IMG/VR virus record: IMGVR_UViG_3300018428_000066
Span: 1 to 37,953 of that record
Strand: one strand, 5' to 3'
Length of the DNA stretch: 37,953 nt
Source: a virus
Shown one piece after another: positions 19,418 to 37,953 of this stretch. The translations under genes and the position numbers were made by a program. Positions within the stretch are counted from its first letter, which is position 1; each line of letters begins with the position of its first letter. The notes beneath the pieces are model-generated. The model worked only from the letters and a program-made list of their open reading frames with translations, did no database searches and had not been told where the DNA came from.

Positions 19418-19439
19418 GTAACTTAATCTTTTGGGTTAC
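19418..19439 (-). promoter_or_regulatory. GTWAC-N12-GTWAC site before the acidic-protein gene
   Basis: Exact match on the minus strand (GTAAC, 12 bases, GTTAC), filling the 31-base gap between the TerL stop and the ATG at 19414, 3 bases from the ATG. Confidence 0.7.
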
Positions 19440-22199: not shown

Positions 22200-22237
22200 G
22201 ATTTGATTCCCACATACTAACATTGGGAATACAAAGT

Positions 22238-22259
22238 GTAAACAAATATATTAAGTAAC
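22238..22259 (+). promoter_or_regulatory. GTWAC-type site before integrase
   Basis: GTAAA, 12 A/T-rich bases, GTAAC (one mismatch), ending 3 bases before the ATG at 22263. The spacer is closely similar to that of the sites before the 192-aa and 654-aa genes. It could also act on the divergent late genes. Confidence 0.6.
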
Positions 22260-23183: not shown

Positions 23184-23195
23184 GTACTACTTAGG
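23179..23195. repeat. 17-bp palindrome across two convergent stop codons
   Basis: CCTAAGTA-C-TACTTAGG. The integrase stop (23181-23183) and the stop of the receptor-binding candidate (23191-23193) both lie in it. It may be a compact bidirectional terminator, though T-runs are absent. Confidence 0.55.
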
Positions 23196-26100
23196 AAATT
23201 TGCTTTAAAGCGACACGGAAGCCAATGTGGCTTGCAAGTTTGTTGGCGACGTCGCTGTAGCGGTTGCCCGAACGCACGAACTCAGGCAAAGTTTGCCAGC
23301 CCCCACCCCGAATGACACGTTCATCGCCTTCTACGCCGACATTGAACGGATCGGTCTGGTCACCTGCTGCGTAACTACCCCAAGCATCCGCCGTCCACTC
23401 ATACACATTGCCGTGCATATCAAAAAAGCCCCAGGGGTTGGCACTGTACTGGCCCACATCAGTAGTTTCTCCAACGGTAAAATAATAATTCGCATCAGTG
23501 GAAGAAATTGCATCCCCCCACGAGTACGCCGTGGTCGTGCCTGCCCTGCAGGCATACTCCCACTCAGCCTCAGTAGGCAAAGCATACTCCCAACCATCAG
23601 GGATATTGCCAGCTTGCTGTTCATTTAAGCGGGTAAGGAATACCTGAACGTTGTTCCACGATACCGCCTCCACCGGGCGGTCCGGGTTGCCGCCATATTG
23701 GCTCGGGGTGGCACTCGACCAATCCGGCCCCAACTCTATCCCAGTCATCACTGCCTCGTACTGGGCCTGGGTCACCTCGTATTTACCTAAATAAAATCCT
23801 TTAGTCAGGGTGACATTGTGAACAGGCTCTGCATTGTTCCCCCCTACATCCCCCATAGTAAAGGTACCAGGCTCTACATAAATCATTTCCAAATCTTTAG
23901 TACCACTACCTAGGGTTAAAGGTTCAGTATAGGTATTGCCTGAAACTGCTTCTGAAGAATTCTGCCCTCCAGAATTTTGCTCTAAGTAGTTATAGTAAGG
24001 AACCTCAGCATTGTAAATCGCTGCTGGATCAGACTCAGAGAGTGGAGAAGCTTCGCCGCCGTTAAGATAGTAATCAAACTGACCCACCCAACCCTGAAAC
24101 TCCATACCAGTATAATTGTAGTAGGCTCTTCTACCAAGTTCAAATGGTCGATAGTCTGTATACCTAAAATACTTGTCTGTTCTAGTATGAGTTGAACCTA
24201 TACGGAATTCACCATTGATGTAGACATTTTGAGTTTGGTTGGTGTTATCATTCGTAAAAACTAGATGATACCATTTATTGAACTCAAAATTACCATCCGG
24301 GAAGTGCTTCCTTTTTATCGGAGTTGTGACAGCGTAGCTGTAGTAAAAATTTCCATCGGTGTCTGTACTACCATTTGACGCAAGCATTTGTATTGGGGAA
24401 TAATATGTAGCTATAACCTGCTCGGGGTCGATGTTTGACTTAATATTATTAATAGTGCTTTGCATCAAATAAGAACCACTGTTAGCAGCGTTATTCTCTC
24501 CATTAGGCCAAATGGCGTCAGCGAAAACCATTGAGGCTTTATCTGGATCGATAGTCACCCCACCTATATCGCTATCTGCGAACTTAACCCACAAAGAGTA
24601 GGCACGACCATAGTACTGAGTGGTGCTGTTAGTAGAAAATCCAGACAATGTGGCAACCAAACCACCCATACCAGAAGTAGGGCCTAAGCCATTAAACTCA
24701 AATACTCCCCCTGTTACATCAGCAGTCCCCGAATAAGGATAAACCCTAAAATATCCACCACTACCATCATTGGCTCCTATTTCAGAGCCTTGTTCTGAAG
24801 AAAAAGTGATTTGCTTATATGGTGCGTTAGTTGTACTCTCTGTGAGTTCCGGGGCATCAGCTACCCCAATAGTATTAAATGAAAACTTAGATTGGTTGGC
24901 TGCTAAATTTTCACTAACTGGGTTGGTTAGTATTATTTCAGCGCTTTGGGGGCCACTAGGGATGGGCAGAGCAGACTGTGGGATATACTTTTTTACGCCA
25001 CCAGCAGTGCGTGCAGCCCAATCAAATCCATAGAACATGGTTCCATCACTAAGAATTGCGTAAGCCTCATAACTAGTGCCTTCACCAGAACCTTCTAAAT
25101 TTAGAATAGTTTGTTCCACAACATAGTAATCCTCAATGCTTGTTGCGTCCGGGTTAAACTTCAATCGCCTATAAGTAGAATCAAAGTAGTCCACTACTAA
25201 ATTTCCTCTCTGCTTCGAATTGAGGAATGAACTTACTAGAGATGACCTATTAAATGTATTAACATGATTCTGCAGGCTAGATGTGTCAGAAAGATCTGTC
25301 TCATAAATATGCTCATTCAGACTAGCGTCACTGAACCTGCTACCTAATACACGCACGACAAGATTACCATTTGTTGCAAAGTTTGCTGCAATACCATAAC
25401 CGATCTGCTCATTAGAAGTATCGGGTGAATCTAATCCCACAAATTGTTTAATCAATGTGAATGTAGCATTTCCATCATTGGATACATAAAGATCCACGAG
25501 TCCTCTTCGTTCACCATCCACCCGAGCAGTGTCGCCGCTGTGACCATTCCCATGGGCAGGAATAAATAAATACTGTTTGCCCTCGTGGATAAATCCATTA
25601 AGACTGCCATATCCATAATAATCAAAAGCAAAATTTTCAAAGGGGTGATCATCCGTGAGGGTTCTTTGTACATAATATACATTTGTATAACTGTCATCTG
25701 AACGCACCCAACTAACCCTACCCTGAGAGGAGCCACCATAATAAGGATCACCCCACGAAATCACGGACGCATCCGGACTCATATAGAGTGAGCTAATGTC
25801 GTTAGCTGGGTTGGCATGGGTTGCGAAAAGTTGCCACTCCTGGGATCCGGATAATTTATATACGTAAAGTTTTAGGTTAGTAAGAACAATGACAACCGTT
25901 TGCCCATCATCAGAAATTCTAATAAGGTCATATTTCCCAAAACCATAAGTTCCACCAGGTGAATCAAAAGGTGAGTAGGAAATATATCCACCTATTTGAT
26001 TACCGATCACACCATCATTAAGCTCATGAATGACAATCTTCTCGTTCCCAAGTTGCCCCCCACATATTGCAATTCTAGTCTCAGTGTCGTTGATCGCTAG

Positions 26101-27081
26101 GGCTTGTCCAAGACCCTCGCTAATTGCAGGTTCAGTCACTAGACTTGATACATCATCAATCACGTCTGATGAAAGAGGCTGAACATTCAGTTGAAGTGAG
26201 TCAAGTGAAGCATAACCATTTTGTACAAAAGAAGACATTCTTAACCTAAAGTATCTAGCTTCTATATTTAAATTAGTGTCAGAGAAGTCTTTTCGGGTGC
26301 CATCGGTAAGACTAAAGTTGGCAACAATGCTCCAATTTACATCATCATCACTTGCCTGGAGGGAGGCAGTCGAGAGGTCTCCTTGATTGCTACCCGAGAA
26401 ATAAAGCCCTGTGATATTATATCCTGTTAAGGAAACTTTCTCAGGGTAAGATTTTTTCAAAATATCAAATGCAGAACCTGAAGATACAACTGTATTAAAA
26501 AATACATTATCTTGAGTCTCGGATGATGTTAGCTCCCCACCAGAAGGTGCCTCTGTTTGCGAGGCTGTATCGGGGTCGCTTGAGTCATATTCGGTGACTC
26601 CGATGTAAAAAGAGTCAATAGCTAACTGACCGTCATTATCACTACTGATTACCTGAATCCTAAATGATTTTGCTGCAGTGTTAATTGTGCCACTGAAATC
26701 CTGTGGGCCAGAAATTACATTAAAAACGTCAACTGTCTCCCAGGATGCAGCTGGGTCGTCTATAATTGACTGAAGCTCAACCACTGCATTTCCGCCAGTA
26801 TAGGAAATTCCGGATATTGAGTAAGATGTTGCAAGAATCTCAGAAGCATACTGATTCTCGAGTATAGTGGCTTCCTGTCCTGCAGCTAAAGTGTTAGTTA
26901 AAAACAGATTTCCATCAGCAGCACCACTTAGACTACTAGAATCTCCTCCTGATGGAACCACCTGGCTGAGTTCAACTGTCTGAGATGTGAAAGTTGTCTG
27001 CCCATTAAATACCATACTATCAATTGCTGTCCCATTAAAGACAACACTTGATACCTCTACCCCATTATATGTTATTCCCAT
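23191..27081 (-). CDS. Multidomain receptor-binding protein with C-terminal FGE/C-type-lectin-like domain
   Basis: 1296 aa. Residues 1-32 repeat V-x-F-N-G-x (YNGVEV, VFNGTA, VFNGQT), a common start of phage tail proteins. Residues about 36-163 and 183-300 look like two discoidin (F5/8 type C)-like sandwiches. Residues about 318-700 have beta-propeller-like blades (LALNxTETRIAICGG style, ISDDGQTVVIVLTNLKLYVY). Residues about 790-1025 resemble a LamG/concanavalin domain (SLWVKFADSD, KWYHLVFTNDN, VYINGEF). Residues 1065-1296 are FGE-sulfatase-like (YVEPGTFTMGD, KYEVTQAQYEAV, LPTEAEWEYACRAG, NPWGFFDMHGNVYEWT, GFRVA). The catalytic cysteine pair near the FGE C-terminus is absent, so it is probably a binding domain. 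Coding DNA from about 23218 to 23780 is much richer in G+C than the rest. It is isolated from the tail genes and has its own promoter-like region. Confidence 0.85.
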   Translation of the reverse strand: MGITYNGVEVSSVVFNGTAIDSMVFNGQTTFTSQTVELSQVVPSGGDSSSLSGAADGNLFLTNTLAAGQEATILENQYASEILATSYSISGISYTGGNAVVELQSIIDDPAASWETVDVFNVISGPQDFSGTINTAAKSFRIQVISSDNDGQLAIDSFYIGVTEYDSSDPDTASQTEAPSGGELTSSETQDNVFFNTVVSSGSAFDILKKSYPEKVSLTGYNITGLYFSGSNQGDLSTASLQASDDDVNWSIVANFSLTDGTRKDFSDTNLNIEARYFRLRMSSFVQNGYASLDSLQLNVQPLSSDVIDDVSSLVTEPAISEGLGQALAINDTETRIAICGGQLGNEKIVIHELNDGVIGNQIGGYISYSPFDSPGGTYGFGKYDLIRISDDGQTVVIVLTNLKLYVYKLSGSQEWQLFATHANPANDISSLYMSPDASVISWGDPYYGGSSQGRVSWVRSDDSYTNVYYVQRTLTDDHPFENFAFDYYGYGSLNGFIHEGKQYLFIPAHGNGHSGDTARVDGERRGLVDLYVSNDGNATFTLIKQFVGLDSPDTSNEQIGYGIAANFATNGNLVVRVLGSRFSDASLNEHIYETDLSDTSSLQNHVNTFNRSSLVSSFLNSKQRGNLVVDYFDSTYRRLKFNPDATSIEDYYVVEQTILNLEGSGEGTSYEAYAILSDGTMFYGFDWAARTAGGVKKYIPQSALPIPSGPQSAEIILTNPVSENLAANQSKFSFNTIGVADAPELTESTTNAPYKQITFSSEQGSEIGANDGSGGYFRVYPYSGTADVTGGVFEFNGLGPTSGMGGLVATLSGFSTNSTTQYYGRAYSLWVKFADSDIGGVTIDPDKASMVFADAIWPNGENNAANSGSYLMQSTINNIKSNIDPEQVIATYYSPIQMLASNGSTDTDGNFYYSYAVTTPIKRKHFPDGNFEFNKWYHLVFTNDNTNQTQNVYINGEFRIGSTHTRTDKYFRYTDYRPFELGRRAYYNYTGMEFQGWVGQFDYYLNGGEASPLSESDPAAIYNAEVPYYNYLEQNSGGQNSSEAVSGNTYTEPLTLGSGTKDLEMIYVEPGTFTMGDVGGNNAEPVHNVTLTKGFYLGKYEVTQAQYEAVMTGIELGPDWSSATPSQYGGNPDRPVEAVSWNNVQVFLTRLNEQQAGNIPDGWEYALPTEAEWEYACRAGTTTAYSWGDAISSTDANYYFTVGETTDVGQYSANPWGFFDMHGNVYEWTADAWGSYAAGDQTDPFNVGVEGDERVIRGGGWQTLPEFVRSGNRYSDVANKLASHIGFRVALKQIS

Positions 27082-27087
27082 TTTGAT

Positions 27088-27116
27088 AATTTAAATGCAT
27101 GAATGGGAGTAATCAA
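27088..27116 (-). promoter_or_regulatory. Sigma70-like promoter of the receptor-binding gene
   Basis: On the minus strand, TTGATT (27116-27111), a 17-base spacer, TAAATT (27093-27088). The -10 ends 6 bases before the ATG, so the transcript would be nearly leaderless. The -35 overlaps the GTWAC-type site, so a bound protein would block it. Confidence 0.5.
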
Positions 27117-27130
27117 GTTAAATAGGTTAC
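27109..27130 (-). promoter_or_regulatory. GTWAC-type site before the receptor-binding gene
   Basis: On the minus strand: GTAAC, 12 bases, ATTAC (one mismatch). It overlaps the TAA stop of the 154-aa gene. Together with one flanking base it matches the site at 34249-34271 in 22 of 23 positions. Confidence 0.65.
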
Positions 27131-27591
27131 TCTGGAAACACCTTTAATTCTGATTGCTCCAGGCAATACCCAGGGCCATGCCCGAGATCTCTTATGTTTT
27201 CGTTTTTAATTAAGTCTTTTTTCCAAGCCCAACCTTTGATGTCCACAGCCCTTCCGTCCACGATGACCAAAACATAAAAGTCAACATCAGGGTTAACTTT
27301 TAGTGTACTTAATAGCCTAGCATTAGGGTAGTGGGATGACTTAATGTCGTACCTGTTGCCCTTAAGAACACCATCGTAACTTCCGCTTCTAGCTTCAGGT
27401 GCAAAGTCAGGGAAGCAGTTAAACTTTTTTGCGAATGCATACTCAGCTACTGCTCCCATCACATCTGCTTCCGAGCCATCTTGCTTTCCCATTTTGGCAT
27501 CCTTCACACCAGTGCCTCGGCTAATGAGACTCCTCATTCTGCCTAGTATTTGGCAGAGGTTGTACTCTGCTTCTGTAAGTTCTAGCCTCAA
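27127..27591 (-). CDS. Putative PD-(D/E)XK nuclease-like protein
   Basis: 154 aa, last gene of the early operon. Motifs: E50 in MGAVAEYAFAKKF, D73 in YDGVLKG and D82-I-K84 in RYDIKSSHYP, followed by a beta strand (FYVLVIVDG). This E...D...DxK order is that of restriction-endonuclease-fold proteins, found in small phage nucleases and in sequence-specific endonucleases. It could cut host DNA, process recombination intermediates or be inactive. It overlaps the 86-aa gene by 4 bases. The stop codon is inside a GTWAC-type site. Confidence in the fold is moderate because only the core motif supports it. Confidence 0.6.
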   Translation of the reverse strand: MRLELTEAEYNLCQILGRMRSLISRGTGVKDAKMGKQDGSEADVMGAVAEYAFAKKFNCFPDFAPEARSGSYDGVLKGNRYDIKSSHYPNARLLSTLKVNPDVDFYVLVIVDGRAVDIKGWAWKKDLIKNENIRDLGHGPGYCLEQSELKVFPE

Positions 27592-27848
27592 ACTCTGTCA
27601 GCTATTTTTGCTAGCTCTGTTATGATATCATCTAACCTTCCCTCAACCTTGTATGTAAGGTCTCTTATAGCTTGAGATTTTTCATATTCATCTACCTGAC
27701 GCATGAAGTTTTCTGCCTCAGATTGGGTTAGCACAATCTTATGTCCACCGACTAGATAAAGATCCACTTCAGTCTTTGTTCTATAATTAATATGTGTAAC
27801 ACAACTTGTGTTTATGTAGTCATCATTTATTTCTGCGAATAAGCTCAT
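27588..27848 (-). CDS. Hypothetical early protein
   Basis: 86 aa. N-terminal beta strands (THINYRTKTEVDLYLVGGHKIVL) are followed by a helical C-terminus rich in charged residues (TQSEAENFMRQVDEYEKSQ, then VEGRLDDIITELAKIADRV), probably a coiled coil. I do not recognise it. It is sandwiched by 4-base overlaps with the kinase gene and the nuclease-like gene, so it is part of the same translational unit. No catalytic motif. Confidence 0.55.
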   Translation of the reverse strand: MSLFAEINDDYINTSCVTHINYRTKTEVDLYLVGGHKIVLTQSEAENFMRQVDEYEKSQAIRDLTYKVEGRLDDIITELAKIADRV

Positions 27849-28378
27849 ACTATTATTTCCTTATCAATTTGATCCTCTGGTAATCCACACTCACTTGAGT
27901 GACTATCTTCTAATGGCTCAAAGCTATCTCTCTTAATTCTCCATACCTCTCCCCCTAAATCGTGGATCATCTTTGCCTCATTAGGGAATCGGATGTCATC
28001 TACTATGCATCGGAAGCTTTTATGTTCTGTTGCACTAGCCCAGGCAATTAGATCTGATATCCTTTCATATACAGGGGTGATCCATATGTTTGGGTGCATC
28101 GCTCTCCCCCACTCAGTCCCCAAAGTCTGTAAACAGTGTCTAGCTGTCACTCCTTCTGGGAACCCTGGAATCTGATCCTCCTTTTTATCATAGATAAATT
28201 TTGCAGGTATTATTACCTCTAGCATTTTTTTTATAGGTGAGGATAAGCTTATTAACTCACCACCTACTTTCTCTGCGAATGTTGACTTCCCGACGCCCTT
28301 CGGGCCGGTAAGCCCGATTACCGAGGGGAAGGTAAATTCTTCTGAATTAACTGCCTGACTGATCTGATATGTCTGCAT
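27845..28378 (-). CDS. Deoxynucleoside monophosphate kinase
   Basis: 177 aa. Walker A GPKGVGKST at residues 25-33, with further features of the T4 gp1-like dNMP kinase family: LQTLGTEWGRAMHPNIW (residues about 85-101), VDDIRFPNEAKMI and the late DSHSSECGLPEDQID. It phosphorylates dNMPs to dNDPs for phage DNA synthesis, in the cytoplasm. The length is slightly short but complete. The start overlaps the previous gene by 61 bases, an unusually long overlap; no better start was found because codon 20 is GTA. Confidence 0.85.
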   Translation of the reverse strand: MQTYQISQAVNSEEFTFPSVIGLTGPKGVGKSTFAEKVGGELISLSSPIKKMLEVIIPAKFIYDKKEDQIPGFPEGVTARHCLQTLGTEWGRAMHPNIWITPVYERISDLIAWASATEHKSFRCIVDDIRFPNEAKMIHDLGGEVWRIKRDSFEPLEDSHSSECGLPEDQIDKEIIV

Positions 28379-28563
28379 ACTTTTAATGGTTTTTTTCCAG
28401 CCTTTAACTTAGGGCCGAGTTTAAAATGAAAATACTCGCAACTACATTCTCCAAATCCATCGTACTCCTCGAGATCTACCAAGTGAGTATTCTCGGGATT
28501 ACTTAAAGACGTTAATAGGAATCGATATGCTTCAAGATGATGTATCTCAAAGCGCGTACTCAT
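28318..28563 (-). CDS. Small SWIM-type zinc-finger-like protein
   Basis: 81 aa. C40-x-C42 and, after 20 residues, C63-x-H65 (GECSCEYFHF...VCRHIRSVR) fit the SWIM zinc finger CxC...CxH, known in DNA- or protein-binding modules. The short N-terminal part is helical (FEIHHLEAYRFLLTSL). Similar small CxC...CxHI proteins occur in phage early regions with unknown function. It overlaps the 74-aa gene by 17 bases and the kinase gene by 61. Confidence 0.6.
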   Translation of the reverse strand: MSTRFEIHHLEAYRFLLTSLSNPENTHLVDLEEYDGFGECSCEYFHFKLGPKLKAGKKPLKVCRHIRSVRQLIQKNLPSPR

Positions 28564-28771
28564 TGTAACGCAGATTTCTAGGTTTCACCCTCGGGATACC
28601 TGTGCCAATTCTTTTCCCATCCTGATCAAAGCCTCTGATCTGGTCTTTCTCCCAAAAAAGATCAAATGCTAGATCCACCTCTTTTTTAAACTTCTGAAAA
28701 TTCTGTAGTGTATAATGGGCAGGGAGGGGAACTTGTCCCCCTCCCCCCATGTAATCACTCTGCTTTGTCAT
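28547..28771 (-). CDS. Hypothetical early protein
   Basis: 74 aa, Gly-rich at residues 8-13 (MGGGGQ) and Pro-containing, with aromatic and basic residues later (FQKFKKEVDLAFDLFWEKDQ, then RVKPRNLRYNEYAL). No family is recognised. A 17-base overlap with the genes on both sides indicates tight coupling. It could be a small accessory factor of replication or host takeover; this is only a positional guess. Confidence 0.5.
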   Translation of the reverse strand: MTKQSDYMGGGGQVPLPAHYTLQNFQKFKKEVDLAFDLFWEKDQIRGFDQDGKRIGTGIPRVKPRNLRYNEYAL

Positions 28772-28973
28772 CGGCTTTCTTCAAGCCTAGCTTAAGCTCC
28801 ATATTCTCTAACTTGAGGGCAATCGTCTCAATTTTCTGCAAGCACGACTCAAAGCGTTCATAGGCTTCGTTTCGGCTCATAGCATTATTGGCGATCACAG
28901 TTATTTTTTCCTCTGCGTTCAGTTTCTTCCAGCGTTCCTGGGCATCTTCTTCAGTTATTTTCTTTTCAGTCAT
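28755..28973 (-). CDS. Hypothetical small coiled-coil protein
   Basis: 72 aa, almost entirely helical and highly charged: TEEDAQERWKKLNAEEKITV, then CLQKIETIALKLENMELKLG with leucines at heptad spacing, ending KKADDKAE. It probably forms a dimer through the C-terminal coiled coil. No family is recognised. It starts by overlapping the 62-aa gene and overlaps the 74-aa gene by 17 bases. Confidence 0.5.
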   Translation of the reverse strand: MTEKKITEEDAQERWKKLNAEEKITVIANNAMSRNEAYERFESCLQKIETIALKLENMELKLGLKKADDKAE

Positions 28974-29158
28974 TGTGCGTTTTTGACTAGTTGATAAATT
29001 TTAGAGATCGGTAAACTAACTATAGCTTTGGCTGTTCTGCCTTTAGGCTTAAAGTCAATCGTCCCCGAGGTGGGGTTGAGCGTAACAACTAAGTTACGCC
29101 CATTCCCATCATCGGCTTCGGTTTCCCGAGTTACATTCTTTAATAGCTTAGTAGCCAT
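28970..29158 (-). CDS. Hypothetical small protein next to SSB
   Basis: 62 aa, beta-rich and basic (NLVVTLNPTSGTIDFKPKG, then RTAKAIVSLPISKIYQLVK). It could pack as a small beta-sheet with a C-terminal helix. Its start touches the SSB stop codon and it overlaps the 72-aa gene by 4 bases. It may act with SSB, but nothing in the sequence proves this. Confidence 0.5.
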   Translation of the reverse strand: MATKLLKNVTRETEADDGNGRNLVVTLNPTSGTIDFKPKGRTAKAIVSLPISKIYQLVKNAQ

Positions 29159-29553
29159 CAGTAAGGGACATCCTCATCGTCATCCGATGGAGCCACACCA
29201 ACTGGAGCAGGAGTAGCTGCAGGCTCATCAGTTTTAGATTTGGCGCAGAACCCGAATGTCATGGGGGTGACGACAAACTTAAACTTTGTACGAGGATTAC
29301 CATTCTTATCCTCGTAACTATCTTGCTCAATCTCGGCATCGCAGTAAACTGCATCTCCCTTCTTGGCAAACTTTGCGATATAATCAGCTACTTGCCTCCA
29401 AGCTTCGCAGTCGAAGTATTTTACAGTCTTCTCGCCCTTTCGGGTTTTATTAACTGCGAGCGAGAAAGTGCAAAGTGTTGCATCCCCGATTTGCTTTGTA
29501 ATAGGATCGGCAGTGAGCCTGCCCATCAACATGGATTTACTATATGAACTCAT
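29158..29553 (-). CDS. ssb: Single-stranded DNA-binding protein
   Basis: 131 aa. OB-fold residues 5-105 with the family pattern MLMGRLTADPITKQIGDATL, ATLCTFSLAVNKTRKG, VKYFDCEAWRQVADYIAKF and KGDAVYCDAEIEQDSYEDKN. The acidic tip DDDEDVPY resembles the C-terminal recruitment peptide of bacterial SSB, which binds replication and recombination partners. It coats ssDNA in phage replication and recombination. The neighbouring helicase and recombination genes agree with that role. Confidence 0.92.
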   Translation of the reverse strand: MSSYSKSMLMGRLTADPITKQIGDATLCTFSLAVNKTRKGEKTVKYFDCEAWRQVADYIAKFAKKGDAVYCDAEIEQDSYEDKNGNPRTKFKFVVTPMTFGFCAKSKTDEPAATPAPVGVAPSDDDEDVPY

Positions 29554-29554
29554 A

Positions 29555-30817
29555 TTAATTTAATCTTGGTTTCTGTGTGAATTTTTGGATTTTTGGTTCG
29601 AAGCAGACCTCGACATCGCCACACCTTCCCTGCCGCTGCTTATTTATTGAAATAATAGTTTCTTGGGGGTCGTCATTTTTTCGCCATAGCATTGCTACTA
29701 CATCCGCATCCTGTTCTAATGCTCCTGACTCCCTAATGTCTGATAATCTAGGCTTACGATTTAACTCGTCTGCCCCTCGATTTAACTGACTTAAAAGAAT
29801 GATGGGTATATTAAGCTCCATAGCTAATGACTTAATTGATCCTGCAATCTCAGCAACCTGCTGCTCCCTTGGGATCCTAGGATCCATTGGGGTCATCTTC
29901 TGAGCATAATCTAGCACGATAAAGTCCAATCCCTTTCTAGCTAGCTTCCTAGCTTTAGATCTAACTTGAGCAGAATTTACAGAGCCTCGATCATCGATCC
30001 AAAGGTTCTTAGTCTTCATCCAACTCATAGCCTTTTGATACATCTCTATGTCAGATTCCCGGGCTGTTCGATCAACGATGTAACCGAGTGGAACCTCGGA
30101 TATATTAGATATCATTCTCTGCATTACGGCTTCAGCTTTCATCTCCAAACTGAAAAATAAAACATTCTTGTCGTGCTTTAGCGCGGACAATGCTAACTCA
30201 CACCCAAACGCAGTTTTCCCGACTGAAGTTCGAGCAGCTAGTATAATCATGTCGCTAGGTTGCCAACCATAAGTGTACGAGTCTAATTGCGTGATTCCTG
30301 AAGGAATACCTGACATTCCAGAAACCTCCATGCGTTTCTGTATGCCAGCCCACATGGAGTCAACGATGTCATGTGCATGCCTAATATCATCTTTACTACT
30401 TAATGAAATTTGAGTCAGTTTATGCTCAACCCTCTCCACTAGCTTGTCTGAAGTACACCCATGCAGTTCGTCCTGAACTTCCATAACTAAGCGCATTAAA
30501 CAGCGCTTACGAAAGTCCTCTTTGCATTTCTCAAAGTAAGAACCAAACATGCGTGAGGTGTCACATCTCATTAATACCTCCTGCACATCTGACCTTTTTT
30601 CGCCCTCAAACATAAGCATCACATCTACATCGATTATGTCAGATTCTCTAGGAGCTTCAGTTATGGACGTCCAAATTTCCTGATTTAAAGGACTTATGAA
30701 CCAATCTATGGTGACCCCACTATCTATACACTCATCAATGAGTGAAGTGTCTCGGCAGATGGTTGAAAGCAATCCTTCCTCTGCCTGAATGTCGCTACTG
30801 ATTTTCAATGTATTCAT
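29555..30817 (-). CDS. Replicative DNA helicase, DnaB family
   Basis: 420 aa. Hexameric helicase that unwinds DNA at the fork. Residues 1-110 form a short N-terminal domain (EEGLLSTICRDTSLIDECID). RecA-like domain: Walker A ARTSVGKT (residues 195-202), FSLEM (222-226), Walker B DFIVLDY (298-304), SQLNR (343-347) and RESGALEQDADVV (362-374), then NKQRQG near the C-terminus. The length is close to bacterial DnaB (about 450-470), with a shortened N-terminus. It lies beside a loader-like gene that overlaps it by 23 bases and next to SSB. No primase gene is found, so it would rely on host primase. Confidence 0.92.
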   Translation of the reverse strand: MNTLKISSDIQAEEGLLSTICRDTSLIDECIDSGVTIDWFISPLNQEIWTSITEAPRESDIIDVDVMLMFEGEKRSDVQEVLMRCDTSRMFGSYFEKCKEDFRKRCLMRLVMEVQDELHGCTSDKLVERVEHKLTQISLSSKDDIRHAHDIVDSMWAGIQKRMEVSGMSGIPSGITQLDSYTYGWQPSDMIILAARTSVGKTAFGCELALSALKHDKNVLFFSLEMKAEAVMQRMISNISEVPLGYIVDRTARESDIEMYQKAMSWMKTKNLWIDDRGSVNSAQVRSKARKLARKGLDFIVLDYAQKMTPMDPRIPREQQVAEIAGSIKSLAMELNIPIILLSQLNRGADELNRKPRLSDIRESGALEQDADVVAMLWRKNDDPQETIISINKQRQGRCGDVEVCFEPKIQKFTQKPRLN

Positions 30818-31343
30818 CTAGGTAAAGTTGCCCTATATCTTCGATGCTTTTGGCATTTTTAAATTTTTCGTAAACAGGAGTTCGGTTTTCTGAAGCCCAA
30901 TCTAGAAAATCATCTAAATTAATCTCATTTTTATCTGCCTCGGGGATTGGTCTCCAATCAGCATTGTTTTTTAGCCAAGTAGTTAAACATGATCCCCACT
31001 CCTTGATCGAATTGCCTCCCTTGAGTACCCACCCAACACTTTGGTAGTGATCGTAAAAAAGCTGTGCTTTAGGTTCCACAGGCTCGGGAATTTTCTTACT
31101 GCGAAAAAACTCAACGACTTCCTTTGCATCCTTGGGCTTATTTCCTCCGCCTAAGGTTTTGCCCTGCCTAGGCTTTCTTTTCCTCTTAGGCTTCTGCTCA
31201 GTCACTTGAATATCTTTTCGGTATTCTGCAAGAGCAGCTAGAAACACTGCAGGTCTAGAAAGGCTCGTCATGTCACAAAGAAGCTCGAGCCTAGCCTCGA
31301 CAAAGTCGTTAAATATTACATTGGCACGATTAGCCACAATCAA
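30795..31343 (-). CDS. Helicase-loader / replication organiser-like protein
   Basis: 182 aa. The middle and C-terminal half contains AQLFYDHYQSVGWVLKGGNS, followed by KEWGSCLTTWLKNN (residues about 92-125). This is the F-x-x-H/Y-Y-x-S-x-G-W...W-x-x-x-L-x-x-W pattern found at the C-terminus of DnaD/DnaT-like and phage replisome-organiser proteins. The N-terminal part is a small helical domain (residues 1-50), with a basic linker (PKRKRKPRQGK). Position immediately upstream of DnaB supports a helicase-loading role. The domain call is by pattern only. Confidence 0.6.
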   Translation of the reverse strand: MIVANRANVIFNDFVEARLELLCDMTSLSRPAVFLAALAEYRKDIQVTEQKPKRKRKPRQGKTLGGGNKPKDAKEVVEFFRSKKIPEPVEPKAQLFYDHYQSVGWVLKGGNSIKEWGSCLTTWLKNNADWRPIPEADKNEINLDDFLDWASENRTPVYEKFKNAKSIEDIGQLYLDEYIENQ

Positions 31344-31755
31344 CCTCCCTTAACCAGATGTAAATACCTGCATCCTGAGATCTTATTTTCTGAATCTGAA
31401 GATCCACAACTTGAGCGTCCGAATTATAAAAAAGCAACTTTCCCATGCAGTCCTGAAACATTTTGACCAGATTATCGGCATCAGGCTTAGTAAAGTGCCA
31501 AGTCCAGCCCTTGTCCTTGACTGCTCGTTTCTCAGACTTAAGAAAAGGGAACTTGTATATAATAGTAAGCGCCAAAGGGCCTTCGAGAGGTCTCTCGGGG
31601 ACATAAGGCATAAGGAGACTAGCGAAGTCTGCTTGCTGTTGCTTTCCTTTGGCTGTGGTATACGAAAATGGTATTCCATTCTTTTTTACTCCTACTCGTT
31701 TAGATGACTGTGCAGTGGATCTTGGTGGGTTACATTTTATGAAAAATGCTTTCAT
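31330..31755 (-). CDS. RusA-type Holliday junction endonuclease
   Basis: 141 aa. Conserved motif KPDADNLVKMFQDCM (residues 90-104), followed by YNSDAQVVDLQIQKI (110-124). Acidic residues D92, D94 and D113 correspond to the RusA active site, with a conserved Lys at 123. RusA resolves Holliday junctions and recombination intermediates as a dimer. The length (about 120-140) is normal. It overlaps the loader-like gene by 14 bases and the DUF2800-type gene by 4, within the recombination block. Confidence 0.85.
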   Translation of the reverse strand: MKAFFIKCNPPRSTAQSSKRVGVKKNGIPFSYTTAKGKQQQADFASLLMPYVPERPLEGPLALTIIYKFPFLKSEKRAVKDKGWTWHFTKPDADNLVKMFQDCMGKLLFYNSDAQVVDLQIQKIRSQDAGIYIWLREVDCG

Positions 31756-32831
31756 GCTGCTGATACAGACTTGGCTTTTTCTTTTCGAAACATGACCTGC
31801 TCGAGGCGAGTCCTAAGATCCTTCTTTGCGTCTTTATCTGACTGATCAGTATGCTCTGCCCAAATCTTTATTAGGTCTGGCTCAGAGATCTTCGTAGCTT
31901 GCAGGAAGCTCGAAACAGGCAGATTCGCAGAAAACAGAATTTCAGACGCACCCACAGCGTCAAAGGAAGTAACACTTCCAGTGTTCCGCAACTTAAAACC
32001 AGGAACATCAACACCGTTCTCAAGCCTGCCTTTCGCAGTAGATTTAATACTTTTCGCGTACCGCTCGATAAACCCGACCAGCTCCATTTTTTCAGCCAAT
32101 TCTTCGTTAGATATATTCTCCATATCAGTTTCTTTATTAATTTCATCTTTGATTAATTTATAAGCCGCAGGGCAGTGTGCTAAAGCCTTGCAGTATTTAC
32201 ATTGAGCTGCGCCTGCAGTCATGGGTGCATCTTCTGCCTCAACCTCGATAGCTAACTTTTTCAGCTTCTCGGCTAAGATTTCCGACAGATCTCTGTGCAT
32301 AACACCCTGTGTCCACTTCCCTAATGCAGGTTGAAGAAGAGCCACCCTCACGCGTTTTACCTGAGGGTAGTTCTGCATCACCAAGGTAGCATAAACCTGT
32401 AACTGCTTATTTTTAGCAGCCTCCTCATACTGGCCGTAGAGCATCTTATAATCAATGACGCTAGCATCCTCTCCATCGACCTCCAAGTAATCGATCTGTC
32501 CAGAGAGGACGCCAACGCCCTGATCAAGCAACCACAAGCGAGCCTCGCGGACAACTTCCCCGCGTAACCCAAATAACTTAGTAACTTCCGACTCCATCCT
32601 TCGACATTCAGCAATGATATAAGCATGGCTAGAATCCATGATCTCATCCACAGGTGTTCCGTTTTCCATATATGAATGCAGCTCGGTTCCTTGAGTTGCA
32701 TCCGATGTGTCGTAATCCTTAAATTTCTGTGAGGATTTGAAGCGAGCTTTGCATAGCATGTTTTCGTAGACTGATGAACCCGACATTTTCGGGACACCCT
32801 TCCAAGCTCGAGCGTTTTTTACTATTCCCAT
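31752..32831 (-). CDS. Putative PD-(D/E)XK nuclease with iron-sulfur cysteines (DUF2800/AddB-Cas4 type)
   Basis: 359 aa. Active-site motifs: H52 (TELH), D114 (GQID), D127-Y-K129 (VIDYK) and Q143 (KNKQLQVYA), the order of RecB/Cas4-family nucleases. C27 plus C211-x2-C214-x5-C220 gives the one-then-three cysteine arrangement that binds a 4Fe-4S cluster in AddB and Cas4. A phage DUF2800-type exonuclease could make 3' ssDNA for the neighbouring Rad52-type annealing protein (10-base overlap). The C-terminal 130 residues are helical and may contact DNA or a partner. The cluster call is inferred from cysteine spacing. Confidence 0.75.
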   Translation of the reverse strand: MGIVKNARAWKGVPKMSGSSVYENMLCKARFKSSQKFKDYDTSDATQGTELHSYMENGTPVDEIMDSSHAYIIAECRRMESEVTKLFGLRGEVVREARLWLLDQGVGVLSGQIDYLEVDGEDASVIDYKMLYGQYEEAAKNKQLQVYATLVMQNYPQVKRVRVALLQPALGKWTQGVMHRDLSEILAEKLKKLAIEVEAEDAPMTAGAAQCKYCKALAHCPAAYKLIKDEINKETDMENISNEELAEKMELVGFIERYAKSIKSTAKGRLENGVDVPGFKLRNTGSVTSFDAVGASEILFSANLPVSSFLQATKISEPDLIKIWAEHTDQSDKDAKKDLRTRLEQVMFRKEKAKSVSAA

Positions 32832-33292
32832 CCCGATAGATCCGCCACTTTTTCATTTGCAGGCTTAGGTAATGCCCACTTAGGTAATTTAGGTGGGCTG
32901 ACAATCCTGCGATTTTCAACAGCCACCCAAGAGACTGGAAGATAGTAAAGGTACCTTCCGATCCCCCACTTAACAGCTGCGCGTTTAAATGCATCGCTGA
33001 TTCCACCCTTAACGCCCTCAATGTTAGTGTCCCCTGCCCCATCGACCTTAGACACCCACCCATCACCAATGTTTAAAGAAAGAGTACATAGGAGCCTTCC
33101 TGTTTTTGTCTCGTAGTAATCGTCAGACCAGTTCTCAAACCCAACGACGTCATCGAGTCGTTTCATTACGTCTCTCGCGTCAATGTAAGCTAACGCACTA
33201 CCTTTTTTGCCGTCTTTAGTCATTTGACCAACGCGCCAGTGTACCACCTTCTCCTCGAATGGAGCCTTCAATCCTTGATAAATATTTTTCAT
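32822..33292 (-). CDS. Rad52/Rad22-type single-strand annealing protein
   Basis: 156 aa. The family signature GGISDAFKRAAVKWGIGRYL lies at residues 96-115, and the N-terminal half contains YIDARDVMKRLDDVVGFENW (residues 36-55) and a strand pair (GRLLCTLSLNI). Such phage proteins form rings and anneal complementary ssDNA during recombination-dependent replication. It pairs with the adjacent nuclease, as in Red-like systems. It overlaps the HTH gene by 4 bases and the nuclease gene by 10. C-terminal residues 125-156 are Pro/Lys-rich, probably flexible. Confidence 0.88.
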   Translation of the reverse strand: MKNIYQGLKAPFEEKVVHWRVGQMTKDGKKGSALAYIDARDVMKRLDDVVGFENWSDDYYETKTGRLLCTLSLNIGDGWVSKVDGAGDTNIEGVKGGISDAFKRAAVKWGIGRYLYYLPVSWVAVENRRIVSPPKLPKWALPKPANEKVADLSGWE

Positions 33293-33498
33293 GCTTCTTC
33301 CAATTCTGTTAGTGCCTCAACTTCTTTTTTGAGGACGCGCTGATATTTCGAAAACTTTGTCTTGTAGGATTTTAAAACTCCTTTTTTGACTAAGTGTTTC
33401 ACACTACGAAATGAGTCAAAACCTAGCTTGGACGCTGCCTCTGTGAGGCTATAGGTGTCACTCAATTTCACAATTCTATTCACTTGTGTATCACTCAT
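33289..33498 (-). CDS. Small HTH protein, first gene of the early operon
   Basis: 69 aa from the ATG at 33498, preceded by AAAGG at a good distance; a TTG at 33534 would add 12 residues. Residues about 12-35 (YSLTEAASKLGFDSFRSVKH) match a MerR/excisionase-like winged or simple helix-turn-helix, and the rest is basic then coiled. Such proteins act as excisionases, replication initiators or regulators. As the first gene after the divergent control region it may bind the operator nearby. It is cotranslated with the annealing protein gene. Confidence 0.6.
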   Translation of the reverse strand: MSDTQVNRIVKLSDTYSLTEAASKLGFDSFRSVKHLVKKGVLKSYKTKFSKYQRVLKKEVEALTELEEA

Positions 33499-33576
33499 GG
33501 GAAACCTTTTGGCGGTTAATGCCACCTCAGTCAATAGATTAATTTAGCATATTGCAAAAAAATATACTAAAACACA

Positions 33577-33590
33577 ATTACAGGTGTAAT
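33577..33590. promoter_or_regulatory. Palindromic operator candidate
   Basis: ATTACA-GG-TGTAAT, perfect 6-bp arms and a 2-base centre, midway between the divergent 69-aa HTH and 73-aa genes. It is suited to binding of a dimeric repressor such as a ribbon-helix-helix protein. Position and symmetry are seen; binding is inferred. Confidence 0.55.
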
Positions 33591-33607
33591 AAGGTGAAAA
33601 TAATGTA

Positions 33608-33636
33608 TTGACATTAGTGGTATAAAATAATTTATA
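33608..33636 (+). promoter_or_regulatory. Sigma70-like promoter for the 73-aa gene
   Basis: TTGACA (33608-33613), 17-base spacer, TTTATA (33631-33636). The ATG at 33671 is 34 bases further on. The -35 is a perfect consensus; the -10 is moderate. A minus-strand promoter for the early operon should lie in the same interval but was not clear. Confidence 0.6.
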
Positions 33637-33670
33637 GTAGATCTTAACACGCTAATAATCCCTCACCATT

Positions 33671-33892
33671 ATGACAAAACCCGAAAAATCAATAGGCATT
33701 CGCGTATCAGACGAATGCTACTCTAAAATTCTAGCTATGTGCGAAAAGCTAGGAGGGATTCCAATAAACAATTTCGCACAAAACTCGATTGAGACCTGCA
33801 TTGAAATGCTTGAATCAAAAGATTTAACAACCCCGAAGTGGATAGCAGTAGGTCGTTATTCATTAGATTTTACGAAAGGAAAAAAATTGTAA
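33671..33892 (+). CDS. Putative ribbon-helix-helix repressor
   Basis: 73 aa. Starts TKPEKSIGIRVSDECYSKIL: a beta strand (SIGIRVS) followed by two helices (DECYSKILAMCEKLGG and NFAQNSIETCIEML), the order of a ribbon-helix-helix (Arc/MetJ/CopG) fold. Those dimers bind palindromic operators like the one 81 bases upstream. No Shine-Dalgarno sequence is present. It is transcribed away from the early operon, as expected for a lysogeny repressor or early regulator. Whether it is the immunity repressor is a guess, since it is small and no CI-like protein is visible elsewhere. Confidence 0.6.
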   Translation: MTKPEKSIGIRVSDECYSKILAMCEKLGGIPINNFAQNSIETCIEMLESKDLTTPKWIAVGRYSLDFTKGKKL

Positions 33893-33928
33893 GGGCAATA
33901 AACATAAAAGATTAATGATTATACTTAC

Positions 33929-33953
33929 AGTAAAGTATAGTACTTACTTTACT
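33929..33953. repeat. Inverted repeat after the 73-aa gene
   Basis: AGTAAAGTA, 7-base loop, TACTTTACT: perfect 9-bp arms. It could be an operator or terminator (no T-run follows). Confidence 0.55.
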
Positions 33954-33974
33954 CAATGCATTGCCTCCTTAAAT

Positions 33975-33996
33975 CCCCCCCCTATAGTCCCCCCCC
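33975..33996 (-). other. Two C8 tracts, G-quadruplex candidate on the minus strand
   Basis: C8, TATAGT, C8 on the plus strand. Read on the minus strand the two G8 tracts can be divided into four G3 runs with loops of 1, 7 and 1 bases, which fits the standard quadruplex pattern. Unusual in this A/T-rich region. Confidence 0.55.
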
Positions 33997-34042
33997 TTTT
34001 ATGGTTCCATGCCAACCATGTGAATGAGTAAATCCGTACGCT

Positions 34043-34070
34043 TTCACAAAACGCACATCGATTTTGTGAA
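34043..34070. repeat. Inverted repeat TTCACAAAA/TTTTGTGAA
   Basis: Perfect 9-bp arms with a 10-base loop, followed by TTTTT on the plus strand; a further half-site ACAAAATC at 34081-34088 pairs with GATTTTGT at 34060-34067. It may be a terminator or cluster of protein-binding half-sites. Confidence 0.6.
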
Positions 34071-34248
34071 TTTTTAATTTACAAAATCGGGCTGTAGACC
34101 GCATAAACACTAGGATTTTTCCGTTTGCTAAAGGCAGTTGGCTTTAGTCATTTTTTAAATACCTTAGCTAGGCACATGGTCTTACTGAGGGAAATGACAC
34201 ACCCATGTGTTAAATGTTGCATAAATTTGTGTCAAATATGTGCTAGGC

Positions 34249-34270
34249 GTAACCTATTTATCTTGATTAC
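34249..34270 (+). promoter_or_regulatory. GTWAC-type site before the 67-aa gene
   Basis: GTAAC, 12 bases, ATTAC (one mismatch). Nearly identical to the site before the receptor-binding gene. Contains the -35 of the adjacent promoter. Confidence 0.65.
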
Positions 34271-34291
34271 TTTACAGAAATTGGTTAATAT
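34263..34291 (+). promoter_or_regulatory. Sigma70-like promoter of the 67-aa gene
   Basis: TTGATT (34263-34268), 17-base spacer, TAATAT (34286-34291), 12 bases before the ATG at 34304. Same layout as the promoter at 27088-27116. Confidence 0.5.
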
Positions 34292-34303
34292 ATTGATAAT
34301 CAA

Positions 34304-34507
34304 ATGACATATGCACTGACATATGGGGAATATGCACCTGATACCCTTGGGGTAACAGTACAAGATCGCATACGTTCATTAGAGCAATGGCGTAACCTCT
34401 GCATAGACGTTGAAACAGACGCCCGCAGAAAAGCAGATCAAGCAAGTGAAGATATTAGGAGGCTAAAAAAACCTAGTATCGAAGAGGCTCAAGATGATGA
34501 GCTGTGA
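34304..34507 (+). CDS. Hypothetical protein, possible regulator
   Basis: 67 aa, helical C-terminal half (LEQWRNLCIDVETDARRKADQASEDIRRLK) with alternating acidic and basic residues. The N-terminal 20 residues (MTYALTYGEYAPDTLGVTVQ) are beta-like. No family is recognised. It has its own promoter-like region with a GTWAC-type site almost the same as that of the receptor-binding gene, so it may be coregulated with it. It runs towards the HNH gene, 34 bases away, with no clear terminator between. Confidence 0.55.
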   Translation: MTYALTYGEYAPDTLGVTVQDRIRSLEQWRNLCIDVETDARRKADQASEDIRRLKKPSIEEAQDDEL

Positions 34508-35468: not shown

Positions 35469-35736
35469 AAACTAAGTTCGAGAAAGGTGTATAGCATCCA
35501 CACCCCCGAGTTGAATTATCAAAAGGCTTACACCTTTTAAGCTCGGCATCGAATATCGGGCATCTGAGGCAAACTTTATATCTGCGTTTCCACTCTAAAC
35601 GATCAATCTCCTTAGCTAGCAACCAATAAGGAAGAACCTTCCATATGGCGTTAGCTAAAATAAAAAATACTGCTACTGAGCTAAGCTCGCCCTTCTCCCG
35701 ATAAATTACTTTTAGAAACTCCTTTATTCTCTTCAT
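35323..35736 (-). CDS. Membrane-associated, cysteine-rich small protein
   Basis: 137 aa. Residues about 19-40 are hydrophobic and may be a membrane helix (SSVAVFFILANAIWKVLPYWLL). Six cysteines follow at 56, 59, 69, 79, 81 and 93 in the pattern CxxCPxF...C...GCGCY...CWG, suggesting a zinc-binding knuckle as in several phage proteins with CxxC...CGC patterns. The start overlaps the 654-aa gene in an ATGA arrangement. It could be a lysis or membrane accessory. The C-terminal part overlaps the 84-aa gene. Confidence 0.6.
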   Translation of the reverse strand: MKRIKEFLKVIYREKGELSSVAVFFILANAIWKVLPYWLLAKEIDRLEWKRRYKVCLRCPIFDAELKRCKPFDNSTRGCGCYTPFSNLVYEECWGRLNYGKAIGWSGYDPESWLERVRYGQGNKTRRGSVEKRDWTI

Positions 35737-37697
35737 GCAAAGGAAGGAGCATCATTTTCAGTAAAGCTTATTCCGCTAGTCCTCTTATCTTCTTGCTGAG
35801 GTTTTGGGTCGGGGGCATTTGGCACAGGTAGTGCCTTCGGATGGCTATCTATCGGGTTCTCAATATTTTCCTCTTTGACTACTACTTGTTTCTTATTACC
35901 ACCACCCTGCTTCTCGGCAAAATTTTCGCCTAGTGAAGAGCTGTCAGCTTTTGTGCTTGTTAATGGTACATTGCTACCACCTTGCCCAGGTGCAGTACCA
36001 GGTGGCATACTCATGGGAGCAGCTGCCATAAATTGAGCATCTGACAACAGGTTCTCGGCACCAGCTTCTGAAAGAGCTTCCATGAGTGTGGAAACCCCAC
36101 CCTTCTCAAGCAGCTTAGCCTGACCATCGGCAGTGTTCATGTCATAAGTTTGACCACTGTATGCAACGGTGCCGCCACCCACAGATTTTACACCTTGTGT
36201 GTTTCTGCCATCATTTTTGTTTTTATTACCCACCATATTTATGGGGTTCCTTTTTCTCTGGGGAGGTCTTCTAGATGAGCTACTACCACTTCCTCCACCA
36301 CCACCACCACCGCCACCACTACCAGTAGCATTAAAACTTACCTTATCGGCTCCAAAGGTGTCTACTGCCAAGCTCATGGGTACTGACAAAGCATTGCCTA
36401 AAAGCTCTACAGGCGCGCCAAGTAAGCCCCTTGCCCCATCTAAAGCAACATCCCAATTTCCTGTTATGCCACCACCAATAGTATTGGCTATGTCATCAGG
36501 CACATTCCAGATCAAACTATTCAAGGTTCTTGCACCTGGTTGACCATCACTAGTCAGCCCATCCCCAAATAAATAATCACCTGTCTTGTTTATTAACCCG
36601 CCAAAGTTTCTAATCCCTGAACCCAAGAAGTTGTCACCTGCTTTTTCACCGAGCCAATTGATACCACCTGCAAGACCATCGGTGACCATATTCAACGGTT
36701 TAAGAACTAAACCAGTACCTTGTTGTAGTAAGTCAGTACCTCGGTCAAAATATCCAAGTAGGGTCTCACCTCGTTTAGGAGTAAACACCATTCCTTGAGC
36801 AGCATATCTCTCATAGCCAACTGGCATCCCATTTATATCAAGCCTACCACCATTCTGAGCCAATAAAGCCTCTGTGTTTCTTGCCCCAGCCTCTAGCTGA
36901 GCAGGTGTGTAGTTCTTGGTGTAATCTAAAGCTCTCTGCTCAGTTAAACTAATATTTGGATCTCTACTACCAGAAATAGTGTTAGCTAAATCATTTCCAG
37001 CCATCACTACTTTCGAGTCTTTCTGACCACCTATCCAATCACTAGCATCATTATTGCCTGCCCAATCTCTACCATCAGTTTCAACTTTTAAAGCTTCAGT
37101 CCCGGTGTACTCAGCTGCAATAAGCTCATTCTGAAGAGATATCATCTCAGCTAACTCTGCGTCTGAGTAGTTCTCAGCGTTATCTGTGGTCTCCGTTGCT
37201 AAATAATCAATTGCATCGGTAGAACTAAAGTTAGCTACATTCCCATCCCGATCTATGTCAATTAAGCCGAGACCCTCAAGTACATCAACCTCTCCACTAT
37301 CTAACTCCAGGACATCATCTATGACCGACTGAATCTCATCTGCATTGTTAAAGTCAGAATAGTTAATGTCGTCTGTGTAATATGCTACAGAATCAAATAA
37401 AAAGTCAGTGTCTAAACCATGAAAGCCGAGATTCGTGTCAAGACCACCATAGTTATCATTTATCAGACCCTGTGCGAATGTCTGATCAGCCACATCCAGC
37501 CCGATGTTGGAAATATTATCAAACTGATAACTGTCCGAGTTCCAAAATGAATCATTAAACACATCGTTTACATCGTTCTGTATGCTCGATGACTGCATCC
37601 ATGATGTATCTACAGGATCAACATCCACACTCGTTGAGTTGTAGTCATCTAAAAAGCTAGATAACTCCCTTGAGTAATTATTCTCTATATCTGCCAT
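35733..37697 (-). CDS. Large putative virion protein, Gly-rich
   Basis: 654 aa. The N-terminal 160 residues are Asp/Ser/Asn-rich and acidic (DVDPVDTSWMQ, DVNDVFNDSFWN). The middle has several short hydrophobic Gly-rich helices (residues about 300-450: GLVLKPLNMVTDGLAGGI, then LLGAPVELLGNALSVPMSLAV). A run of nine Gly precedes SGSSSSRRPPQRKRN (about residue 460), and the C-terminus is Pro/Lys-rich and disordered. Large proteins with this mix are often internal virion or ejection proteins that insert into membranes, but no motif proves it. The start lacks a Shine-Dalgarno sequence and lies 4 bases from a GTWAC-type site. Confidence 0.6.
   Translation of the reverse strand: MADIENNYSRELSSFLDDYNSTSVDVDPVDTSWMQSSSIQNDVNDVFNDSFWNSDSYQFDNISNIGLDVADQTFAQGLINDNYGGLDTNLGFHGLDTDFLFDSVAYYTDDINYSDFNNADEIQSVIDDVLELDSGEVDVLEGLGLIDIDRDGNVANFSSTDAIDYLATETTDNAENYSDAELAEMISLQNELIAAEYTGTEALKVETDGRDWAGNNDASDWIGGQKDSKVVMAGNDLANTISGSRDPNISLTEQRALDYTKNYTPAQLEAGARNTEALLAQNGGRLDINGMPVGYERYAAQGMVFTPKRGETLLGYFDRGTDLLQQGTGLVLKPLNMVTDGLAGGINWLGEKAGDNFLGSGIRNFGGLINKTGDYLFGDGLTSDGQPGARTLNSLIWNVPDDIANTIGGGITGNWDVALDGARGLLGAPVELLGNALSVPMSLAVDTFGADKVSFNATGSGGGGGGGGGSGSSSSRRPPQRKRNPINMVGNKNKNDGRNTQGVKSVGGGTVAYSGQTYDMNTADGQAKLLEKGGVSTLMEALSEAGAENLLSDAQFMAAAPMSMPPGTAPGQGGSNVPLTSTKADSSSLGENFAEKQGGGNKKQVVVKEENIENPIDSHPKALPVPNAPDPKPQQEDKRTSGISFTENDAPSFA
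36292..36324 (-). repeat. CCA/GGT microsatellite encoding poly-Gly
   Basis: A run of nearly uninterrupted GGT codons encoding nine glycines in the 654-aa protein; length variation by slippage is expected. Confidence 0.6.
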
Positions 37698-37701
37698 CCT
37701 A

Positions 37702-37723
37702 GTTACCTAATTTACTTGGTTAC
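37702..37723 (-). promoter_or_regulatory. GTWAC-N12-GTWAC site before the 654-aa gene
   Basis: Exact match on the minus strand (GTAAC, 12 bases, GTAAC), ending 4 bases before the ATG at 37697. Confidence 0.7.
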
Positions 37724-37826
37724 AAGGTTTTCGTCAAATCCCATTAGTTCCAGATTTAGGAAAGTTCAGAAAAGGTGGATATAATTGTATATGACGCCAG
37801 GTTGCTTCCCCCCCGGCACCCCCTTT

Positions 37827-37850
37827 GTAACCTAATGCCTATTAGGTAAC
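37827..37850. promoter_or_regulatory. Variant GTWAC-N14-GTWAC site
   Basis: GTAAC, 14 bases, GTAAC, with a CCTAAT/ATTAGG inverted repeat inside. The spacing differs by two bases from the other eight sites and no gene start adjoins it, so it may be a decoy, a relic, or a site for a gene beyond the window. Confidence 0.5.
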
Positions 37851-37953
37851 ACATATGCCATAAGTTATTGATAGTCAATGGGTGCGTGCGTGGCGTTGTT
37901 ATGGTTGCCCATGGTGGGCAGTTTATTAATCAATCAAAAATCAAAAGGAAAAA

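Follow-up and report, generated by a model that had tools for sequence, protein, structure and literature searches.

A dyad-symmetric DNA site repeated at gene starts of an uncultured phage clade, a candidate dispersed operator of one regulator

Why do two widely separated promoters of one virus carry almost the same upstream block of 23 bases? The question is raised by IMG/VR virus record IMGVR_UViG_3300018428_000066, of which positions 1 to 37,953 were analyzed; this whole stretch of 37,953 nucleotides (nt) is called the window. The two blocks lie upstream of a gene of 1296 amino acids (aa) on the minus strand, plausibly a putative receptor-binding gene, and of a 67-aa gene on the plus strand. 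A sequence-only reading had proposed that both genes are controlled by the same protein and may be the ones expressed in the prophage. This observation was correct but partial, as the blocks belong to a larger genome-wide family of dyad-symmetric sites. With moderate confidence, the family is read as a dispersed set of operators that lie over leaderless promoters and serve a single dimeric regulator, which is probably a repressor.

Block 1, GTAACCTATTTAACTTGATTACT (27130 to 27108, minus strand), and block 2, GTAACCTATTTATCTTGATTACT (34249 to 34271, plus strand), differ at 1 of 23 positions. Only these two places in the window lie within 3 mismatches of the block, and 100 dinucleotide shuffles gave 0. 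The hexamer TTGATT is inside both blocks (27116 to 27111, minus; 34263 to 34268, plus) and is followed, after exactly 17 bases, by TAAATT (27093 to 27088) or TAATAT (34286 to 34291). The agreement of 22 of 23 positions and the promoter-like geometry described earlier were thus borne out, and the geometry is retained in related records (named by G and L numbers below). The 67-aa gene is preceded by TTGATT-17-TATTGT in G011, TTGATT-17-TACTAT in G003, and TTGATA-18-TATGCT in G005. The 352-aa gene of G011, at the position of the 1296-aa gene, has TTGATA-17-TAAAAT upstream. The 22-mer of block 2 is identical at the same place in G011, G003, and L050 and is more diverged in G005, G007, and L047.

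A repeat search detected similar elements of 23-27 bases at 829, 4686, 19418, 22236, and 37702. When these were aligned by eye with the blocks, one dyad-symmetric family was obtained, GTWACCWARTWWAYTWGGTWAC. Its members are 22-bp dyads of the form GTWACC-N10-GGTWAC with the half-site GTWACCWA. The window holds 6 consensus matches at 3 mismatches or fewer and 13 at 5 or fewer, for which ten shuffles gave 0.0 and 1.2. A scoring matrix was trained on 35 gene-adjacent sites of five relatives only, with the window excluded to limit circularity; the training candidates were still chosen via the window-derived consensus and nearness to an ATG. With this matrix, 11 places in the window score 17 or higher, and the chance expectation is 0.12 matches at 14 or higher (200 shuffles). 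Nine of the 11 places adjoin a gene start, and in all nine the better-scoring orientation faces the gene, with a narrow margin at 15128 and 28565. The other two places (9738 and 32564) are inside genes and may be non-functional. The sites, with their mismatches to the consensus and matrix scores, are as follows.

27108 to 27130, minus strand: block 1, covering the -35 of the 1296-aa gene (23191-27081), with the -10 at 27093 to 27088; leave-window-out matrix score 24.5
34249 to 34271, plus strand: block 2, covering the -35 of the 67-aa gene (34304-34507), with the -10 at 34286-34291; score 23.0
829 to 850, minus strand: abuts the ATG of 250-828 (192 aa); 1 mismatch; score 29.5
4686 to 4707, minus strand: 2 nt before 3730-4683; 4 mismatches; score 21.4
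15128 to 15149, minus strand: 8 nt before 13251-15119 (622 aa), at an equal distance in G005, G011, and G003; 5 mismatches; score 18.2
19418 to 19439, minus strand: 3 nt before 19148-19414, just past the terminase gene; 4 mismatches; score 25.4
22238 to 22259, plus strand: 3 nt before the integrase open reading frame (ORF) 22263-23183, and also 14 nt before the opposite-strand ORF 21984-22223; 2 mismatches; score 24.6
28565 to 28586, minus strand: weaker site, 1 nt before 28318-28563 and inside ORF 28547-28771, with counterparts in G011 and G003; 5 mismatches; score 20.9
37702 to 37723, minus strand: perfect site that covers the -10 of TTGACG-17-TAAATT and lies 4 nt before 35733-37697 (654 aa); 0 mismatches; score 27.7
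9738 to 9759, no strand assigned: dyad-like site inside 7646-10135; 5 mismatches; score 20.0
32564 to 32585, no strand assigned: dyad-like site inside the exonuclease gene, with counterparts of 3-4 mismatches in relatives, a similarity that may be coding conservation; 3 mismatches; score 23.6
37827 to 37850, no strand assigned: variant dyad GTAACC-N12-GGTAAC in the conserved non-coding region beside the 654-aa gene; arms unchanged in G011, G010, G003, G005, and G007

The 1296-aa and 67-aa genes are not a special pair, because the same site precedes the integrase gene, genes of the structural region, and the 654-aa gene. For the same reason, the suggestion that the two are the genes expressed in the prophage found no support. 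Half-site pairs from four genomes concentrate at a spacer of 10 bases, with 15 there, 5 at 11, and 5 at 12. All five spacer-11 pairs are inside ORFs and may be chance, and all five spacer-12 pairs are the conserved variant at 37827.

The family is a property of the clade. With the terminase as query, 17 loci were retrieved from IMG/VR, plus one contig that belongs to a genome bin, and a site with 4 mismatches or fewer is present in all 17 loci. Sites of 3 mismatches or fewer were found in 11 of 11 related records searched, up to 12 per record, and the reversed pattern gave 0 matches. An exact pattern with 14 fixed bases matched 6 IMG/VR stretches, of which 5 are in the clade and 1 is a contig without a tblastx match to the window; a stricter 24-base consensus had no match in IMG/VR. 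Within IMG/VR, exact consensus sites are almost restricted to this clade. This restriction, like the existence of the sites and their symmetry, placement, and conservation, can be read directly in the sequences. The longest relatives are 72.9 and 75.6 kb, and the window probably covers roughly half of a genome.

Placement was counted in six records (the window, G005, G011, G003, G007, and G010, of which G010 and G011 are close kin) with a crude longest-ORF set. Of 70 sites with 4 mismatches or fewer, 42 end 0-14 nt before an ORF start. When sites were selected for an ATG within 14 nt, 58 were obtained, and 40 remained after near-copies were removed; 39 of these 40 are 10 nt or less from the ATG. 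The integrase ATG stands 1-3 nt after its site in the window, G011, G005, and G003. The blocks of the 1296-aa and 67-aa genes and their counterparts, 27-56 nt before the start, are farther away than most. A strong Shine-Dalgarno (SD) match of at least 5 bases precedes 1 of 41 genes with a site, compared with 43 of 128 internal genes and 8% of random positions; a strong SD was also counted for 11 of 84 operon-first genes with no site, a class that cannot be relied on since the gaps to neighbors were often miscalled. The score for a sigma70-like promoter, from hand-entered matrix frequencies, peaks for a -10 ending 3-12 nt before the ATG, where 21 of 40 sites score at least 4 versus 3-9 of 40 in five upstream bins. 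Sigma70-like promoters thus overlap about half of the sites. The placement at the ATG, the scarcity of strong SD matches, and the score peak, taken together, suggest leaderless promoters that the site overlaps. Transcripts without a leader are noted to be common in phages (PMC5312081).

From these results, we infer one protein, repression, and leaderless transcription. One dimeric DNA-binding regulator would recognize GTWACCWA half-sites, normally as the 22-bp inverted pair. The operators would overlap sigma70-type promoters with no leader or almost none, at the -35 in the two genes of the sequence-only reading and at the -10 and start in many others, and the bound protein would block RNA polymerase. 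Many transcription units, including structural, integrase, and accessory genes and the 67-aa gene, would be held in one coordinated off state and released together. The proposed control of the 1296-aa and 67-aa genes by the same protein is supported in this indirect way, through a conserved dyad site before many genes of the clade.

A natural variation at one promoter is consistent with an operator. In 19 sequences of the site after the terminase gene, several of them near-identical, the site stands 3-4 nt before the ATG in 15, whereas in the other 4, from a lineage like G005, it is flipped and 6 bp farther upstream. The terminase end and the ATG are the same distance apart in all, within 1 nt. 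This tolerance of a shift and a flip in one promoter suits an operator, and the placement of sites at the -35 in some promoters and at the -10 in others fits a repressor.

Several results weigh against this reading. In the post-terminase promoter, the TTGA is partly the terminase stop codon, and the fixed distance is not independent promoter evidence. Among the 70 sites, 28 are not within 14 nt of a listed start and some are inside ORFs. SD matches of at least 4 bases precede 18 of 41 site genes (random 28%), so that leaderless starts are unproven; these matches probably stem from the AGGT of the site itself. The sigma70 score is below 4 at 19 of 40 sites, and the -10 score may be inflated by the AT-rich core that the site brings with it. 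As with dispersed operators, the phage repeats one DNA site at many of its promoters; none was seen in the early lytic control region. The 22-bp site was not found in the early divergent region 33535-33670, where the best matrix score is 9.4 and where a lysogeny repressor would be expected to act. The two candidate regulators, of 73 and 81 aa, gave no confident family match or model (predicted local distance difference test, pLDDT, 48.0 and 54.9). The sites are also directional, with the left half better in 21, the right in 6, and both equal in 13 (p 0.006), a bias that would fit a promoter element no less than an operator lying over a -10.

The last point, together with the absence of sites from the early control region and their presence before structural-region and accessory genes, leads to a different reading that we regard as possible but rather doubtful. 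The site could be a phage-specific promoter or activator element for middle or late genes, which recruits RNA polymerase via a phage factor, and the early genes would use plain sigma70 promoters. The low sigma70 scores at about half of the sites and the tendency of the site orientation to follow the gene would be accounted for. Against such an element, the site covers the -35 in two promoters but the -10 elsewhere, and one orthologous promoter has it shifted and flipped; the families listed for G011 from 44 of its 85 ORFs of at least 60 aa (12 from Pfam, and 25 of the 39 from PHROG) include neither an RNA polymerase nor a sigma factor. T7-like promoters were likewise rejected, as a phage RNA polymerase was detected neither in the 40 window proteins scanned (10 also against Pfam) nor in the G011 families listed. 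It is unlikely that the sites are bound by a host regulator which the phage exploits, with the regulon governed by the state of the host and not by a phage repressor. No CI-like repressor was recognized among the proteins scanned, which are part of the proteome, and this would agree with a host factor; exact sites are, however, nearly confined to the phage clade, and in the genome bin that contains the relative L035, a bin that is probably not the host, sites with 3 mismatches or fewer are on the phage contig only. The dyads could also act as RNA hairpins before the AUG, as translational operators, since many directly precede start codons, and this is extremely improbable. The outer dyad pairs are paired at 0.688 versus 0.698 when permuted (40 sites), no covariation of paired positions was seen, and the mean RNA fold of the sites is weak (-1.29 kcal/mol, with 4 of 40 at -5 or lower). 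Because the halves do not covary, the site is read as DNA.

A recombination function has to be weighed as well. The two blocks face apart because the replication module of the window, as part of an inversion of 23191-34248, is inverted against its flanks relative to G011, G010, G003, G005, G007, L050, L041, L047, and L035; L050, G010, and G011 seem to belong to a single species, in L035 just one side can be seen, and L045, which has no flanks, is uninformative. The blocks might be recombination sites, a 23-bp inverted repeat used to invert a 7-kb replication module. The inversion itself, seen against five genomes compared and adjoining the 34249 site on one side, and the presence of tyrosine recombinases speak for this. 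All five near-identical contigs are nevertheless colinear with the window over the parts covered, with L037 and L038 spanning both sites, and one of the two alternative inversion junctions, when searched in IMG/VR, was not found. The many other sites would scramble the genome, and the direct-repeat arrangement in G011 puts the breakpoints outside the 27108 site. This function is therefore very unlikely. The inversion was seen in the species of the window and not in the other relatives compared.

G011 also bears on the origin of the 1296-aa gene. At the corresponding position, G003 has one site between a 66-aa gene and the counterpart of the 154-aa gene, and G011 has the 352-aa gene between two sites in direct repeat. 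Because the leader and the first 33 or so residues of the 352-aa gene resemble those of the 1296-aa gene, the latter appears to be a cassette carrying or sharing this promoter. In G011, the 154-aa gene, site, leader, and N-terminus already follow one another as they do in the window, and from this order the inversion breakpoints are placed near the integrase 3' end (~23183-23191) and between 34047 and 34249. In a search with the first 200 residues of the 1296-aa protein (23191-27081, minus strand), residues 1-33 showed 48% resemblance to the protein at the same position in a relative. YNG/FNG repeats of the N-terminus are common to the same-position protein in a relative, and the C-terminal domain is FGE-sulfatase-like.

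One DNA-binding protein probably switches many genes of this phage together, like the dispersed operators of some temperate phages. In phage P1, dispersed C1 operators are read by one repressor; they are asymmetric, whereas the sites here are dyads. The stoperators of cluster A mycobacteriophages are asymmetric and terminate elongation. They share with the present sites the spread of many copies over the genome, and they differ in that the sites here are dyads, mostly close to start codons. Numerous sites across the genome are described for the L5-type repressor of these phages (PMC9283540). In the Bacillus phage SPbeta, a repeated element at intergenic sites, the 15-bp motif SPBRE, is read by one master repressor, MrpR, which has a tyrosine-recombinase fold without retained activity (PMC10516654). 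The likeness is a repeated intergenic element in one phage; the differences are the 22-bp dyad, known here from sequence alone, and the two recombinases, which keep their catalytic residues. An MrpR-like repressor was rejected on this ground, as both recombinases retain R, K, HxxR, H, and Y when read by eye. Alphaproteobacterial phages controlled by CtrA have repeated regulator sites in control regions (PMC9437464); a CtrA regulon was rejected here, as TTAA-N7-TTAA was present in 0 of 40 sites tested, within 60 bases. In search listings of the literature on this layout, no description of this site was seen. The system was not filed under MrpR/SPBRE or stoperators, since the predicted binder is known from its sites only and the loss of catalytic residues typical of MrpR was not seen.

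The candidates for the binder remain few. The 73-aa early protein (33671-33892, plus strand) is 67-92% identical to its counterparts in 6 relatives aligned; it matched no PHROG family and nothing convincing in Pfam or the PDB. A guess by eye that it is a ribbon-helix-helix regulator gained no support from profile, PDB, or model, and the model of the 81-aa protein was too poor for use. For an uncultured phage lineage without a recognized repressor, the sites provide a concrete, testable regulon. It comprises about a dozen sites named in the window, their consensus is strong enough for capturing the binder, and one promoter offers a natural example of a site that is shifted and flipped. If true, this would be an added case of genome-wide single-operator control, on leaderless promoters.

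The integrase adds a further, more speculative element. The tyrosine integrase (22263-23183, plus strand) has intact catalytic residues, as read by eye. In all three integrases aligned, the ORF reads in frame through a stretch (22312-22356 in the window) that resembles, by eye, the 3' part of a tRNA-Val(GAC) gene; ARAGORN found no whole tRNA at this attP-like stretch, and no prophage was found in an established host. Integration at 22312-22356 would split the integrase ORF from its promoter, as in the archaeal 'suicidal' integrases, which are said to be exclusive to archaea (PMC8371274). We propose, tentatively, that the clade puts much of the genome outside the replication module under one operator abutting leaderless starts and read by a protein unlike known phage repressors, and that integration inside the integrase frame would also sever the integrase from the operator-controlled promoter that drives it. 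G011 and G005 carry another tyrosine recombinase as well (346 aa; L025:3854-4894, minus strand; L020:15895-16935, plus strand), again with apparently intact catalytic residues and beyond the part covered by the window.

The relative L035 lies in a genome bin titled 'uncultured archaeon', in which a reversed control pattern matched once; L035 is probably mis-binned. An archaeal host was rejected, as the attP-like 40-mer (2 mismatches or fewer) occurred in 1 of 200 genomes of the phylum, and this was the phage contig itself. Against named phages, the integrase and the 73-aa protein had no match. For the terminase, 8 records were matched, with 25-31% identity along 27-55% of the query, and the helicase matched 2136 records, all below 60% identity, which says little.

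Two observations concern the leader of the 67-aa gene and the end of the window. This leader is conserved, and an alignment of 7 leaders revealed a further dyad.

34281 to 34303, plus strand: TTGGTTA-N9-TAATCAA, a second dyad within the 67-aa leader, covering the -10 of the gene

The non-coding region 37760-37946 is conserved, with 84% identity to G011, and contains a dyad, TGTAACCTAATG-N3-ATTAGGTAACAC, that is unchanged in all aligned rows. Part of this region is present at both contig ends of G005, and this suggests that G005 is a complete circular assembly.

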